NCBI RefSeq assembly: GCF_036711975.1
Contig: NC_091973.1
Coordinates: forward strand, 124,001-188,000
DNA: 64,000 bases
Source of the DNA: Onthophagus taurus
Taxonomy: Eukaryota; Arthropoda; Insecta; Coleoptera; Scarabaeidae
Direction: 5' to 3'
Position numbers and translations under genes: made by a program. Shown piece by piece: positions 46,756 through 59,432 of the stretch; position 1 is the first letter of the stretch; each line of letters opens with the position of its first letter. The notes below the pieces were generated by a model that worked only from the letters and a program-made list of their open reading frames with translations, was not told the DNA's origin and searched no databases.

Positions 46756-49700
46756 ATGACCAGCCTGGCCCTGGCGTTGGATAATGTAGACGTAAGTGAC
46801 AGCACGGAGCAGATAAGTAAATTATTTCCGAAGTGCAGACCGAGAAGTGACATTAACTTGAACCCGATACTGGGCTCCGCTCGTGAACATGATCTCGTTC
46901 CCGACAACGCTACCATCGGTGTAATGAGTATCGATAGAGATAACGATAGGTACGCGGCCCGGCCTGTAGTGTACGCTCAAATAGACTCACACCGATCGTT
47001 CTTGCGCTAGATGGATTTCCGAACCCACAATCAACGATAGAGACAACAGGCATTCCACGGACGACGATGAAATGGGGGGTAGCTATAAACTGCGCGACTC
47101 TAGGTACGCGTTTTCTTTCTGATACTCATTTTTATTGTTTTTTCGTTTCTTTTCCGTTTTTTGCACACTTGGAAATAATTTATTTACGCTTCCTTTTCGT
47201 TATGCACTACCGAAGATGCCGTTATTTCACTACATTATTTTTTCTTCTTCATTTTTCGCCACTTGTAGAATTATCGAAATAGCCGGCGGTCGCGAGATAT
47301 ACTCTCAAAGTCGCAGCAAGGCCGTTCGCAAATCACGAAACCCGAACGATGGTGGTGATCCAGAAAAGAAGAAGCCCCAGAAGTCACCGCAAGGCGTCTG
47401 GCAATTGCGCGGCCGTTGCACGGACCCGAACAAACTGAAGGGTGCTCGCGAACTCACCGAGACGGTCTTCTCATCGGAGGTCCGTTCGGTCACGTACCAG
47501 CAGCAGGAGAATGAGGCGACCGTCGTCGTGAGTCCCAAAATGGCTAGCCCGCCCAGCGAGGTGGTGGTTTTCGACGACATCGGAGGCGAAGCGTGGCGCG
47601 ACGAAGCCAAACGTGAAGACACCAACACTGCCCCCGTTATGTACAATCAAGAGGAAGCCGAAAGGGTCACCAAGGTAATCGGCAGCTTACCTATCGCCGT
47701 TTACGAGGGCTCTCCGCGTCGGTACGGCCCACGACAGGTCGAAACTTGCTCCCATCCTCAGCTGCCTAGTGCCCAAAGCTTGTTGGCTTCTCCCAGCGTT
47801 TACCCCCCGAGGCCAGGCTTTCCTCAACGCGTCGTTTGCTCTCCTAACGATGTTGAACCTCCACAGCAAAATGACACTACTACCACTACCTACAACGTGA
47901 GTACTTTATTTATCGGTTTTTATGCATTTTAATCATATATCATTTTATAGCGTAATAGCCCGACATCTCCACGTGGCACTACAACTTCATCTACTTTCGA
48001 CTATCTTTACGAATTCTCGGAAACTAGAAAGGTTCTCGAAGAATTTTTCAAGTGTCCGCCGCCCGATGAAGAGAATAGGTTGGAGACTGAGTTTCAAGAC
48101 TTGGAGTACGAGTTACGCAGGCAAGGTTCCGAGTCTGGAAATTCATATGTCGGGCAAAGATTAGCTAAAGGTCGACCTGACCAATCGGATTTTTGCTTAC
48201 GTATTGAATCACCAAGGAAACATACAAATCCAACTCTCGTTTTACAGGTAAAAATTGTTTCAATTTATTCGTTAAGTATTATATGTATGCTAATATTTTT
48301 CCTTAGGATCATGATATAACAGAACATGAAAATAACTTCTTGGATTTAAGTATCGGAACGGGCTCAAGCGGAGATTTAGGTGAAACAGAAGTAGGTTTAC
48401 AAGTTGGTCATAGTCGGAACTTTACTTTGTCTCCAGAAACTACCGATTGCGATTCGAATTGCGGCGACCTAGATAGCGAAGTCTCCCTAATGCTTATGGA
48501 AAATGAGTTGGGCCCGTCATCTGGTCTTTTAGGTTTGTCACTTTCTCTTTTTCAGCTATCCATTACCTTCGTCACTTTCAGGATCCAGTGGTGATATAGC
48601 TATTCCAAGCGATTCTTTGCGACTATACTCTAGCATGCCTGTTTTGGAGGACGGCTTATCTTCGGGTCACGCCAGCGACACTGACAACAACAATCCAACG
48701 GTCATGCTTATGAAACGGCAAATTACCGAAATTGAACGCGAAATCAATCAGACTATTGGGCGAAAGAAATTACAAGAAAACGGGGTTTCTCCGAATAAAG
48801 AGAGATCTTCGGTGTCACCAATTGATATTAATGGTTGCTTAAATAACTTCGAAGATCAACATTCTCACACGCAAAGCGAATCTTTAGGTACATTAGGGTC
48901 TTAACCCACTATCTACATGAGCATATTATATTAAAGGGTACGTTTATTTTGTTGTTAGAAAAAACACCACCTCCTCCAGCTCCAGCTCCACATCGTAGTT
49001 CAAATGAGAAACCAAACGACGTCGAGGCGGCTATTAAAGATATACGACTGACGTTACAAAGAACGAAAACGCTTCCGTTGAAATGTCATCCCGAGGAAGA
49101 CAGCGAGGAGAACGCCACGAGCCCCGTGTGGGTGCCCAGGTAGCGACGTTTAAGGGCACGTAGGCAACTATGAGCCTTCCTCCTACGTACCCTTAAACAA
49201 TTTCTCATTATAAAACGTCAACTTTATTGGTTTAGACAAAGAGGGTTATCCGCGACGAGCGGCGATTCCGACCGAAAGGTTCAAAGTGGCGAAGAAGGCG
49301 GCGATGAAGAAGAAGCCGATACCGATTTAGAAACGGATCGTTTGCTTGGACAACAGCGTACGGATGATCAAGGTTTCTATGACGACAAGGTAAGTTGAGC
49401 TTATTGAAATGTAACTTTTTTTTTTGAGAGAAATTATTTAGTAGTATTGAGATTTTTGTTTTTTGTTTATATATTGAATTAGATGCGGAAAGAGAAGCAT
49501 GTTAAATCGCTGGTGGTCTAATCGTCTGTTGTATTTTTCTGTTTGTGTGATAGGGTTGGAGAAAACCTAAAAGCCGGACAATAATGCCTCCGCTCAGTTT
49601 ATCAACCCCTAAAATTCACGCGCTAGAGGAGGGGACCGTACCGTTGGTCCCCTCCGATGCACGTGCCTCCCATCCGCCATCCCCTACAGTAACGTCCGAT

Positions 49701-52700
49701 AAAAGCCAGTCGCCCCAAAGCCAAAAGGGATCCGTGTCGTCCGTAAAGCTAAAAAAGGTGTGAATTGTAGACCTAAACAATCGTAGACGGTCGACTGCTG
49801 TCTCCGTTTTAGAACTATTTAGAGTTATTTAGATGCCTGTCAGTGTAATAGGTAAAAACTTATTCGCTTCGCTCTCCGTTAGAAGAAGATTCTTTATCGC
49901 TCGGTATAGAATTATCTTCTTGTTGAAAGTAGCCACCTTACTACATAATAATGATGTTTAACGTTATAAAAACTGTTATTACAAGTTCAAGATAACAATT
50001 GATTTTATATTGTTATTTCAATTTGAAAAACGTCACACATCATTTTTTTTGAAATTTAATTAATTCAACTAAAAGTAAATAACTTATTGTTCTTTGTGTG
50101 GCTTCTTTCGTGTTGGGACTGCAAAAAAAAATATATATATATATGTGATGATATGCAAGAATGTTCGCGCGCACACCAAACAAAAAATAGCGTCCAATCA
50201 AAAAAAAAAGTAGGTAACAAACATATAATTTTTTCTTGCAGGAAAAAGAGAACAAGAAGAAGGGCCGGAACAAGGAAGGTAACGATACTTACACAAAACC
50301 CATTAAAATTTAGCTCTTTTACTAACCGAATGTACTTTTTTTTAACAATTTTTCTCTTTAACTTTTTTTGCCTGGGTCTATATCGGGTGAGTGGGTGCGT
50401 CCTAATTTGTTTCTTTCTATATTAATGACATTATTTGTTTTTAGATATCTTGGATCGTTCAGTTCTAATAGAAGGTGTGCTATTTCGAGCTCGGTACCTT
50501 GGTTCAACGCAGTTGGTATGCGAAGGACAACCAACGAAGACCACGCGAATGATGCAAGCGGAAGAAGCTGTGTCGAGGATCAAGGTAGGAATGGCATGGC
50601 GCTATCACTACACATTCTGTTGAGCACCAACACACCCTGCTACTACTCACAATATAAACACTTGTCATGACAAATTTATACAATTTTGTTTTTATTTTCT
50701 TTCATAATTGTGGTGGGCGGGGCAAAAGTTTCTCAAATTTGAAACTCTAGTGTAGCTCGATTTTTAGCATTTTAGAAAATTTTTTAGTATCGAGTACTTT
50801 TGTCCTCCAGATTCGCATTTTAAATTTTTATTTAAGTGTTGCTGGTGGCATGTTAGTGACGAGAGCCGAAGGTCTATGATCTTTTGTAATGGCGGTAATC
50901 CATGATCGGTAATTGTTCAAAAGGCCCTCCTCCCACTCTTTTTTTCTCTCTTTGTTCACTGGCGTGGACCTAACGTGCCGTAACCGTACAGTGGTTGGTT
51001 GCCTGCTCCATGTTTGTGGTACCCTTCGATCTGTCACCAATCTGTAGCGCACCTTATTTTTCGCTTTGGATGTTTTGTACTTACCCCCAGACGTTCCCCC
51101 CTACTCTTCTGTCTACTCTTACTATGTGTCAGATCTTGTACATAACACGGGATTAGATTACGGCGCTTCCGGTACTACCGATAGAGCTAGGGAAAACCGG
51201 CCTAGATGTTACTTTTTAGCGTTAGATGTGGCGTAGGCAGGGGATAGAAGGGATAAGATGCGGGTAAACTTGCAGGAGGCACCAACCAACCGTACGACCA
51301 GTCCCGAGAACACGTGTTTCGTCGACCACGTCGACGACTCCGAATGCGTTAAAGAGATTGCGCAACCTACTACACATGGTGAGCTGCATTTTTCATATTT
51401 TTTCTCCCACTTAACCATTCTAATACAAACCTCTTACAAAAATCGGATCTAATTATTGAACTAATATTTCAACTTTATCGCATATAATCGGTACTAAAAT
51501 GATTCATTCTTGTATGGGCATCGTGTTAGAATGGTAATTTAATTCGGGTTTATATTCGAAAAAGAAGAAAAACAAGGGTCTGTGTGTCTTGTTGAAAGGC
51601 GGGGACCGTGCGTGTCACGTGCCAGCGGGCTATGGGGCTACCGGCACCGTCTTTCGCCTGCAATTTCTCGGATCCGTCGAGGTCGACGAAGAGGGGGGTC
51701 GTAAGCGCCGCAAACGGCTAAAGAAAAACATGGTTGAGGTGGCCGTTACTAAGATCAAGGTCTGAGTGCTCGATCATTAAAACAACAATTTCGCCCTATT
51801 GTCAAAATTTGCCTTGTTCCCAGTGCAACTCTTTAGCAAAATTTCCGTATCGGAATGATTTCTTTTTGTTTTAGAATTTGCAGCTTTTATTTATCACTAT
51901 CACCACTGGCTTGCTAATGATTGCTCTGCGAACAATGTTGAATAGTACCTCTTTTCTGACCTAATTACACATTAAAACCTTGGCTTTTCTTTAACTATAA
52001 CATTGACGATTTCCTTTTTCATAACATTTTTATCTTCCACGCTGCATTAATTTTTTTCATTCAAACTAGGCATTGGTAAGTTTACAAGTTTATAATTCAA
52101 GTAAATTTACAATAAAAGATTTATAAATTTTATGTTAGGCTCCTGATGGTGAGTCCCAACCGAGTACTGAAGTGGATTTGTTTATTTCAACGGAGAAAAT
52201 TATGGTTTTAAATACGGACTTAAAAGAGATCATGATGGACCACGCGTTGCGGACGATATCCTACATAGCAGACATCGGAGATTTGGTCGTATTAATGGCG
52301 AGACGCCGATTTGTGCCCCACGAAATGGAGGACGCGCCAAAAATTAATCGAACACCAAAGATGATTTGTCACGTTTTTGAGAGCGAAGAAGCTCAATTTA
52401 TAGCACAATCCATTGGACAGGCCTTTCAAGTAGCCTATATGGAATTTCTAAAAGCTAACGGGATTGAAGATCACAGTTTCGTTAAAGAAATGGATTATCA
52501 AGAAGTTCTTAATTCGCAGGAAATTTTTGGGGACGAACTTCAAATGTTCGCGAAGAAAGAAATGCAAAAGGAAGTAGTCGTTCCGAAAGCGAAAGGTGAA
52601 ATTTTGGGGGTGGTTATTGTTGAATCCGGTTGGGGATCGATGCTTCCCACAGTTGTCATTGCCAATTTAGCACCGGCCGGGGCGGCAGCTCGGTGCGGCC

Positions 52701-53268
52701 AATTAAACATTGGTGACCAAATTATCGCCATAAACGGCGTCAGTTTGGTCGGGTTACCACTTTCCACTTGTCAGAATTATATTAAAAACTCGAAGAACCA
52801 AACTGTCGTTAAACTCACGGTTGTACCCTGCGCTCCCGTAGTTGAAGTTAAAATCAAACGACCTGATACAAAATACCAGTTAGGATTTAGCGTACAAAAC
52901 GGAGTAATTTGTAGCTTACTTCGCGGTGGTATTGCGGAAAGGGGTGGTGTTCGAGTCGGACATCGGATTATTGAAATCAACAATCAGAGTGTCGTCGCTG
53001 TTCCTCATGAAAAAATTGTTAATCTTCTAGCTACATCTGTTGGGGAGGTAAGAATATAATAATTTTTTTTTATTTCGGTTTTTACTCTTTTTCTATCTAA
53101 CACATCTCCAGCAGTAATCGAGATATCTGTTGTAACAACTAAAATCAAACACTGTTTATATAGTTTTTTTTATATTAATTTTATGATTGGTTTCAGATAT
53201 TGATGAAGACAATGCCTACGTCGATGTTTCGATTGCTGACGGGACAAGAAAACCCGGTTTATATATAA
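46756..53268 (+). CDS. X11/Mint adaptor (APBA family, LIN-10), PTB and two PDZ domains
   Basis: Thirteen exons in the main model: 46756-46949, 47011-47103, 47269-47896, 47951-48247, 48307-48532, 48582-48887, 48959-49139, 49236-49389, 49554-49757, 50242-50278, 50445-50584, 52139-53047 and 53197-53268. They give 1146 residues in frame. The long N-terminal half is disordered, with conserved blocks [20 protein letters not shown] and [20 protein letters not shown]. The PTB domain runs from [19 protein letters not shown] to about residue 925 ([38 protein letters not shown]). PDZ1 starts near residue 977 and PDZ2 near 1057. The end, [16 protein letters not shown], is typical of the family. X11 binds the NPTY tail of APP-like proteins and works in neuronal sorting and synaptic exocytosis. 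Exon 9 (204 nt, phase 0-0) could be skipped. An alternative exon pair lies in the intron before exon 12. Confidence 0.95.
50585..51275. other. X11 intron 11, first part
   Basis: Non-coding by all tests I could apply, but 50830-51200 is less AT-rich than usual. It could hold a promoter for a short X11 transcript that starts with the exon at 51276 or its in-frame ATG at 51258. Confidence 0.4.
51276..51759 (+). CDS. Alternative X11 exon pair encoding a different PTB front half
   Basis: Two exons in intron 11. 51276-51378 (34 codons plus one base) encodes [34 protein letters not shown]. 51599-51759 encodes [53 protein letters not shown]. The second mirrors exon 11 strand for strand: [11 protein letters not shown] against [11 protein letters not shown], and VAVTKIK against EAVSRIK. 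Phases are 0, 1, 0, identical to exons 10 and 11, so the pair can replace them before exon 12 ([15 protein letters not shown]). An ATG at 51258, in frame and continuous with the first exon, allows a separate short isoform instead. Splice sites are GT-AG at all four ends. I cannot tell from sequence which form is used. Confidence 0.75.
53101..53157 (-). repeat. Repeat family F terminus in the last X11 intron
   Basis: Reverse strand: CAGTGTTTGATTTTAGTTGT, TACAACAGATATCTCGATTA, CTGCTGGAGATGTG. It matches the termini at 27294 and 40480. Only one end is present. Confidence 0.65.
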
Positions 53269-54922: not shown

Positions 54923-56313
54923 TTAACAAGCTGGCAAACTAGGAACAAATCCTTCCTTAGCAACTGCCAGTTTTTGTTTAACCAAAAATCCCGCTACGAT
55001 ATCTGCAACATTGCCCGGCTGATCCTCATGTATGGCATGTCCGCTTTTTGCCAAAACCTGCAGTTGAAATTTGCCCTGCATTTGCCCGATCGTGAGGGTT
55101 GTATCCAACCCGTAAATATTCGCCAAAAGTAATACTTTGGGCATGGCGATGTTGAGGAATTTCTGCGACAAACCTTTGAACCAACCGCTCCAAAAACTTT
55201 CAGTTTTACTTAAATCAATGCGCCATGTGTAACTGTTGGCATCGGACGGTTTTACAAATTCTGTTGTAGAAACATCTTTTTCTACTTCTTGTGACGAACT
55301 TTCACCAGGTGAATCTTCTGATCGTGAATCTTCGTCTACTTCCGCGATACAATCCGCAGACCTTTGATGAACTAACTTATATTGGCGTGGTTCTGTTGAG
55401 CTTTCTTCCAAATCAATTTCTTGCGTTGCTAATAAACCTGTTTTTGAACTGATTTTTTTTATATATTAGAAATAGTAGGACTTTTTATTAATTCAACTCA
55501 CTTTTTTATTTGTCCTGGCATCGAAATTCTTGCTGCTTCTAAATTATGAGTTTGACCACTTCTAAAACTAAAAATAATTTTGTGAATATTAATTTATGAT
55601 TACAAATATTTATTTACCTCCACTGAATAGCTTGATCTATGGTTTTAAAACTATTAGGACGACCTCTTAGGATGCTTTGCATAGCCGATAATGATTCCAT
55701 TGCGCTACCTTCAACAACATCTATAACGCAAAGTGCAACGGCCGTTTGAATTAAGTAAGCCGATTCAACAGCAATTGCTCCACCCATACTATGTCCAATT
55801 AAAACGACTGGGGGTATATTTTCAGTAAAGATTGTCTTAATGATTTCATCAACATCGGAAGCTAAAATTTCTAAGGAGAGATTCATATCATCTTCGGTAT
55901 TTGTTAAACCATGCCCACGTAGATCAATAGCTAATACTTGACACTCAACTTTTCTTGTTATTTCCTCCTAATTATTAACACAAACAATTAAAAATAATCT
56001 TTAAAATGTAAATTTTTTGCTAACTTACGGTAAATAAAGCCCATGTTAAAGCCGAATACCCTCCACCATGGAGCATAGCCACTACGGGACCAGAATTACC
56101 TTTCAAATACACATTGAAAATGCTTTCACCTATCTTCACATCACGTTTACTATCAAAATACTTTTCCCATTTCGTTGGCGAAAAATCTTTAATAGCTCCA
56201 GAGGTGAATCTTAAAACAATTGGGATTATTTTCACTTTATTTTTTACCTCTCATAAAATTTAATTGTACCTTTTTGACCCTTTCGAAAGAAGGTTTTTTC
56301 GCAGTGAAGACAT
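54923..56313 (-). CDS. PPME1, protein phosphatase 2A methylesterase
   Basis: Five exons on the minus strand: 56313-56270, 56209-56029, 55967-55618, 55561-55502 and 55448-54923, giving 386 residues, the same length as human PPME1. The short first exon reads MSSLRKNLLSKGSKR. Then come the core FSPTKWEKYFDS, the oxyanion region VVAMLHGGGYSALTW, LAIDLRGHG, and the nucleophile elbow IGHSMGGAI (Ser near residue 136). The distal part has IDVVEGSAMESLSAMQ, RGRPNSFK, YTWRIDLSKTESFWSGWFKG and the catalytic His region KSGHAIHEDQP. The enzyme removes the C-terminal methyl ester from the PP2A catalytic subunit. The acceptor of exon 5 follows an A-rich stretch instead of a pyrimidine tract; it was chosen because it is the one that preserves frame. 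Confidence 0.93.

Positions 56314-57595: not shown

Positions 57596-59432
<1,837 letters not shown>

Follow-up and report, generated by a model that had tools for sequence, protein, structure and literature searches.

X11/Mint proteins connect vesicle traffic with APP-type receptors, with neurexin and with the tails of calcium channels. In the mammalian family member Mint1, exon 6 encodes 11 residues and is alternative, giving the forms Mint1 837 and Mint1 826, and a primer spanning exons 5 and 7 reads SRIK^AP (the caret marking the insertion point; available part of PMC3667844). When exon 6 is skipped, according to the same part of that article, the PTB domain binds GTP-bound Rab6 with accumulation in the Golgi area and with APP binding kept (PMC3667844). 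SRIK^AP is thus known as a junction at which splicing controls the choice of PTB partner. Among solved human chains, X11 (1aqc) carries an insert of 11 residues at SRIK^AP and APBA2 (3suz) a basic stretch, and one APBA1 chain (4dbb) has no insert there. A second related system is formed by tandem duplicated exon substitution events, in which duplicated exons are often spliced as mutual substitutes (available part of PMC9741552).

The X11/Mint gene of Onthophagus taurus lies on the + strand of the 64 kb stretch of DNA that was analyzed (the window) and contains two optional exons, A and B, together referred to as the cassette. By domain order the insect gene is an X11/Mint orthologue, as is mammalian Mint1. 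Mint1 exon 6 and the insect cassette are alike in being optional, in being located exactly at SRIK^AP of an X11 PTB domain and in encoding a basic insert, and the position of insertion agrees with both the PDB chains and the available part of PMC3667844. However, the mammalian insert consists of 11 residues and includes neither a PTB half nor a linker exon, whereas the insect cassette comprises a PTB half and a linker, and the analogy is therefore one of position only. A copy of the mammalian insert in the intron that separates exon 11 from exon 12 was considered and rejected, as a blast comparison of the Mint1 11-mer with the window found nothing in that intron. The substitution events described in the available part of PMC9741552 share with the X11 cassette a neighboring exon copy, a homologous stretch, the same domain and a synaptic gene, but they swap the copies whereas the X11 cassette keeps both in one protein, and they differ in that exon B needs the preceding linker exon A to maintain the frame. 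The main text of PMC9741552 does not mention X11, APBA or Mint, and the stem “splic” is absent from the main texts of PMC11405698 and PMC2429963. Searches of the open-licence literature showed no paper describing a PTB cassette in insect X11. Judged from sequence, a copy of half a domain beside its original, with one shared second half, appears to be a variant of two known things that was not encountered in that literature.

Exon organization of the X11/Mint gene in the window

The exons from the upstream common exon to the C-terminus are organized as follows.

49554..49757, + strand: exon 9, shared exon upstream, end in phase 0
50242..50278, + strand: exon 10, 37 nt
50445..50584, + strand: exon 11, PTB first half of the standard form
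start 50463, + strand: second acceptor for exon 11, which shortens it by 18 nt and removes DILDRS
51276..51378, + strand: cassette exon A, linker ending in ...THG, phase 0 to 1, 103 nt
51599..51759, + strand: cassette exon B, PTB first half in a second version, phase 1 to 0, 161 nt
52070..52075, + strand: microexon GCATTG (Ala-Leu), 6 nt, optional, between exon B and exon 12
52139..53047, + strand: exon 12, PTB second half plus both PDZ domains as far as the last PDZ part
53197..53268, + strand: exon 13, C-terminus ...ENPVYI and stop codon

The domain order of X11/Mint, with a PTB domain and then two PDZ domains at the C-terminus, is present: Pfam places PID on exons 11 and 12, and the precomputed domains of the protein encoded by the long splice form (P0001) are PF00640, PF00595 and PF17820. 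The best PDB matches for the standard half joined to exon 12 are X11/APBA chains that cover the whole domain (E 6.6e-59 to 1.9e-55). P0001 (LOC111414179 isoform X3, Onthophagus taurus, 1044 residues) is identical to the spliced exons of the window from the MASPP methionine to the stop codon, and three O. taurus database isoforms agree letter for letter with splice forms of the window from exon 9 to the end. Downstream of the gene, the reading frame 54923-56250 on the - strand is presumably an alpha/beta hydrolase similar to protein phosphatase methylesterase, and the reading frame 58116-59432 on the + strand we take to be a Csk-like SH2-kinase.

Exons A and B are located where the original prediction placed them, with AG/GT borders and phases 0-1-0. 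Exon A is bordered by ..TTGCAG| and |GTGAGC and exon B by ..GAAAG| and |GTCTGA, and the two exons joined comprise 264 nt with 88 open codons. As had also been claimed, the outer phases of the cassette are the same as those of exons 10-11 (0 and 0), and translation of the window reads in frame from exon 9 through A-B into exon 12 without an internal stop.

The microexon between exon B and exon 12 (AG|GCATTG|GTAAGT) has correct splice borders, is present in database isoforms and is 6 nt long; exons of the neuronal microexon program are defined by a length of 27 nt or less and by neuron-specific inclusion. X11, Mint and Apba are not mentioned in the main text of PMC8797185. Both the microexon and the exon 11 acceptor at 50463 had been overlooked in the original prediction.

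Exon B as a second first half of the PTB domain

The earlier proposal that A-B encode a second version of the opening half of the PTB domain is supported by Pfam, hhalign and tblastn. In a six-frame tblastn search of the 64 kb window, the best non-self match of exon 11 is exon B (51643-51759, 36% identity, E 0.002; next match E 1.2) and, in the reverse search, the best non-self match of exon B is exon 11 (next best E 0.96). The mayfly exon B also matches exon 11 of the window (43%, E 4e-4). A profile–profile comparison of 15 exon-B rows with six exon-11 rows (hhalign) returned a probability of 92.7 and an E-value of 4.2e-7. When exon-B segments were compared alone with the Pfam PID/PTB profile, 13 out of 15 matched at E ≤ 10, the best of them at 2.5e-4; the segment of the window itself scored E 0.032 and 14.7 bits, which is under the Pfam cut-off of 20.9. 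The Pfam PTB score is 102 bits for exon 12 alone, 121.9 bits for exon B with exon 12 and 142.9 bits for the standard half with exon 12, and exon B and exon 12 together cover positions 1-139 of the 140 positions of the profile. Exon B contains what defines a PTB first half, an xYLGS-type strand motif followed by a helix that ends at the I-K position (profile positions ~1-40), and lacks the LIEG stretch ahead of the strand. The highly basic loop that had been predicted for exon B is there, with K or R at 8 of its 11 residues.

Based on these sequence comparisons, exon B is a duplicate of exon 11; its origin within X11 is indicated by its position, its phase, the profile alignment and the mutual tblastn match. 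The derivation of exon B from another PTB gene is neither supported nor excluded by the profile search of the PDB with exon B, in which no chain was significant (the best PTB chain was Numb, E 1.7). The X11/Mint structures (APBA, lin-10; 1aqc, 3suz and 4dbb) fit the standard half with exon 12, and no solved chain matches exon B. A duplication of exons 10 and 11 as a pair was also considered and dropped: exon A displays no resemblance to exon 10 in the tblastn search of the window, and only exon B is therefore called a copy.

Use and conservation of the cassette in insects

Homologues were collected from the best 120 of 147 matches to the cassette region and the best 120 of 3072 matches to the standard junction, giving 203 distinct proteins. 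These are database protein models clustered at 90% identity, a level at which an isoform with swapped exons could be hidden within a cluster, and we assume that models named “isoform X” are mostly automatic predictions. Among the matches listed, the cassette isoforms are already present in the databases without comment in their names.

The frequent splicing of duplicated exons in this mode (available part of PMC9741552) and the matching outer phases, which keep exon 9 in frame with A-B and exon 12, speak for a mutually exclusive swap in which A-B take the place of exons 10-11 in the mature mRNA, and such a form is possible in principle because A-B are in frame with exons 9 and 12. Mutual exclusion was the first idea tested, as it had been the original prediction, and it was dropped on the evidence of the database models: among the 203 listed proteins, all 133 that contain exon B carry the standard half upstream of the cassette, both copies thus being present in every one of them. 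A junction 49757-51276 that excludes exons 10-11 had been named as support for the swap; this join is found in none of the 133 cassette models (protein models, not reads), and the exclusive junctions are therefore not seen. Within the limits of these searches (120 of 147 and 120 of 3072 matches, clusters at 90% identity), a swap is very unlikely. Of the earlier idea of a domain-half switch, the alternatively used second first half is retained and the exchange with exons 10-11 is not.

The remaining 70 of the 203 listed models lack exon B, and in each of them the standard half is joined directly to the second half, with or without Ala-Leu. In P0123, the standard half reads FRANYLGS. Among the three O. 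taurus isoforms, P0001 contains exons 9-10-11(50463)-A-B-AL-12-13, P0124 exons 9-10-11(50445)-12-13 and P0197 exons 9-10-11(50445)-AL-12-13 (AL, the Ala-Leu microexon). Cassette and skip isoforms share one LOC number in at least 10 genes among the matches listed (O. taurus, Tribolium castaneum, T. madens, Rhynchophorus, Nicrophorus, Sitophilus, Dendroctonus, Anthonomus, Coccinella and Chrysoperla), so that, in the database models, forms with and without the exons arise from one gene as is characteristic of an optional cassette.

Two smaller splice choices are also seen in the models. The cassette isoform P0001 uses the shorter form of exon 11, and the skip isoforms P0124 and P0197 use the longer form. 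The Ala-Leu microexon is found in both a cassette isoform (P0001) and a skip isoform (P0197). Among beetle models it is present in 8 of 23 scorable cassette models versus 3 of 67 skip models (Fisher p 6e-4), a count of cluster representatives that are not independent, with two cassette rows unscorable and with beetles labeled by organism name except for P0125, P0149 and P0173, which were counted as beetles without one. An association of Ala-Leu with cassette use in beetles is a lead. One further model, P0121 (Plutella xylostella), has two standard first halves and one cassette half, which points either to an additional duplication or to an error in prediction.

In 125 of the 133 cassette models (89 with Ala-Leu and 36 without), the cassette is joined to exon 12 as expected, and both PDZ domains are kept, as had been anticipated. 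Among the other eight, P0013 joins inside exon 12 and seven read into the intron past exon B and lack exon 12 (P0026, a Coccinella cassette model, and P0035, P0056, P0066, P0086, P0091 and P0092), which means that some cassette transcripts may make no PTB domain. In the window, read-through past exon B stops after one codon (AAG GTC TGA). Together with the seven intron-ending models, this stop would fit a regulatory exon: when it is included, the downstream intron would be used and translation would end early, so that the mRNA either decays or yields a short protein that lacks the PDZ domains. The 125 models that join exon 12 as expected argue against it, and we regard a regulatory exon as improbable. 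The intron-ending models are beetle, wasp and ant sequences, the corresponding intron in the window is 51760-52069, and a real alternative 3′ end may be present there.

The conservation in other insects on which the original prediction had staked the two exons is extensive. Among the matches listed, the cassette is found in 11 insect orders from mayfly to beetle (Coleoptera, Neuroptera, Hymenoptera, Trichoptera, Lepidoptera, Hemiptera, Thysanoptera, Psocodea, Blattodea, Orthoptera and Ephemeroptera); this count covers insects other than Diptera, which like non-insect animals are absent from those matches. A third homologue search, with the mayfly exon B as query, gave no match among nine candidates, though relatives are known in that length range, and carries no weight as evidence of absence. 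The mayfly copy (Cloeon, ...MVEEAVSRVK) is closer to the standard ending EEAVSRIK than is the beetle copy. In 15 chosen rows, 16 exon-B positions show no variation (F, L, F-L-G-S, V, E, K-K, M-V-E, A-V and the final K), a pattern that is the same as the standard pattern FxAxYLGS ... EAVSRIK. Between the LGS motif and MVE, all 133 cassette models among the 203 listed contain five to eight K or R residues; the loop sequence itself varies, and the leafhopper, planthopper and mealybug rows no longer have the exact run RKRRKRLKK. Linker length also differs among 24 models, the shortest linker having 27 residues and the longest 123. Since most of the models are predictions, the cassette could be conceived of as an annotation artifact, a degenerate exon copy within an intron that gene predictors join and that yields no product. 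The amino acid conservation over 11 orders and the exact agreement of the predicted borders with the window make this hardly credible.

As far as sequence and database protein models go, these comparisons establish the two exons, their additive order, their optional use, their homology and their conservation.

Possible effects on the PTB domain

Skipping of the cassette would give the ordinary X11 PTB domain. Its inclusion would insert 88 residues (90 with Ala-Leu) at SRIK^AP, that is, at the end of the first-half helix and ahead of the next strand of the second half. The predicted long form thus consists of a first half, a flexible linker of variable length, a second first half and one shared second half. 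The reading we favor, with moderate confidence, is that A-B are an optional additive cassette whose half can replace the standard half and that the PTB partner is thereby changed in a manner set by splicing. In such a mechanism, splicing would determine the ratio of the two mRNAs by cell type. As the cassette half keeps the PTB core and adjoins the second half, it could take the place of the standard half, and displacement would give the domain a basic, altered face. By analogy with mammalian Mint1 at SRIK^AP, the partner change might be between binding of the Rab6 type and binding of the receptor-tail type. We infer from this analogy that the insect cassette changes PTB partner choice, probably by competition of its half with the standard half. 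An AlphaFold2 prediction on P0122 with 31 cassette-bearing proteins gave a mean pLDDT of 37.8, too low to be informative, for the PDZ part as well.

An alternative effect of inclusion would be to switch the PTB domain off: the insertion of 88 residues within the domain would split the standard halves, the cassette half would dock poorly, and the long isoform would keep only its PDZ functions. Poor docking may be suspected from the lower PTB score with exon B (121.9 versus 142.9 bits for the standard half) and from the missing LIEG stretch. However, the core pattern is retained in exon B of insects as far apart as mayfly and beetle, and adding exon B gives a higher PTB score than the 102 bits of exon 12 alone, which goes beyond the needs of a mere spacer. 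We regard an off-switch as rather unlikely.

If the cassette half does replace the standard half, a more specific arrangement can be tentatively suggested and is possible, if doubtful: in cis, the cassette half would oust the standard half and, in trans, the freed half would complete the second half of another X11 molecule, giving a pairing by half-domain exchange. Should this be true, a domain-half exchange controlled by splicing would have been kept in winged insects since before the mayfly split.

If the old and conserved long isoform is real, cargo choice by X11/Mint would be set by splicing in insects as in mammals, the two groups using one junction with unrelated inserts, and the X11 constructs used in insect work may stand for only one of two forms.
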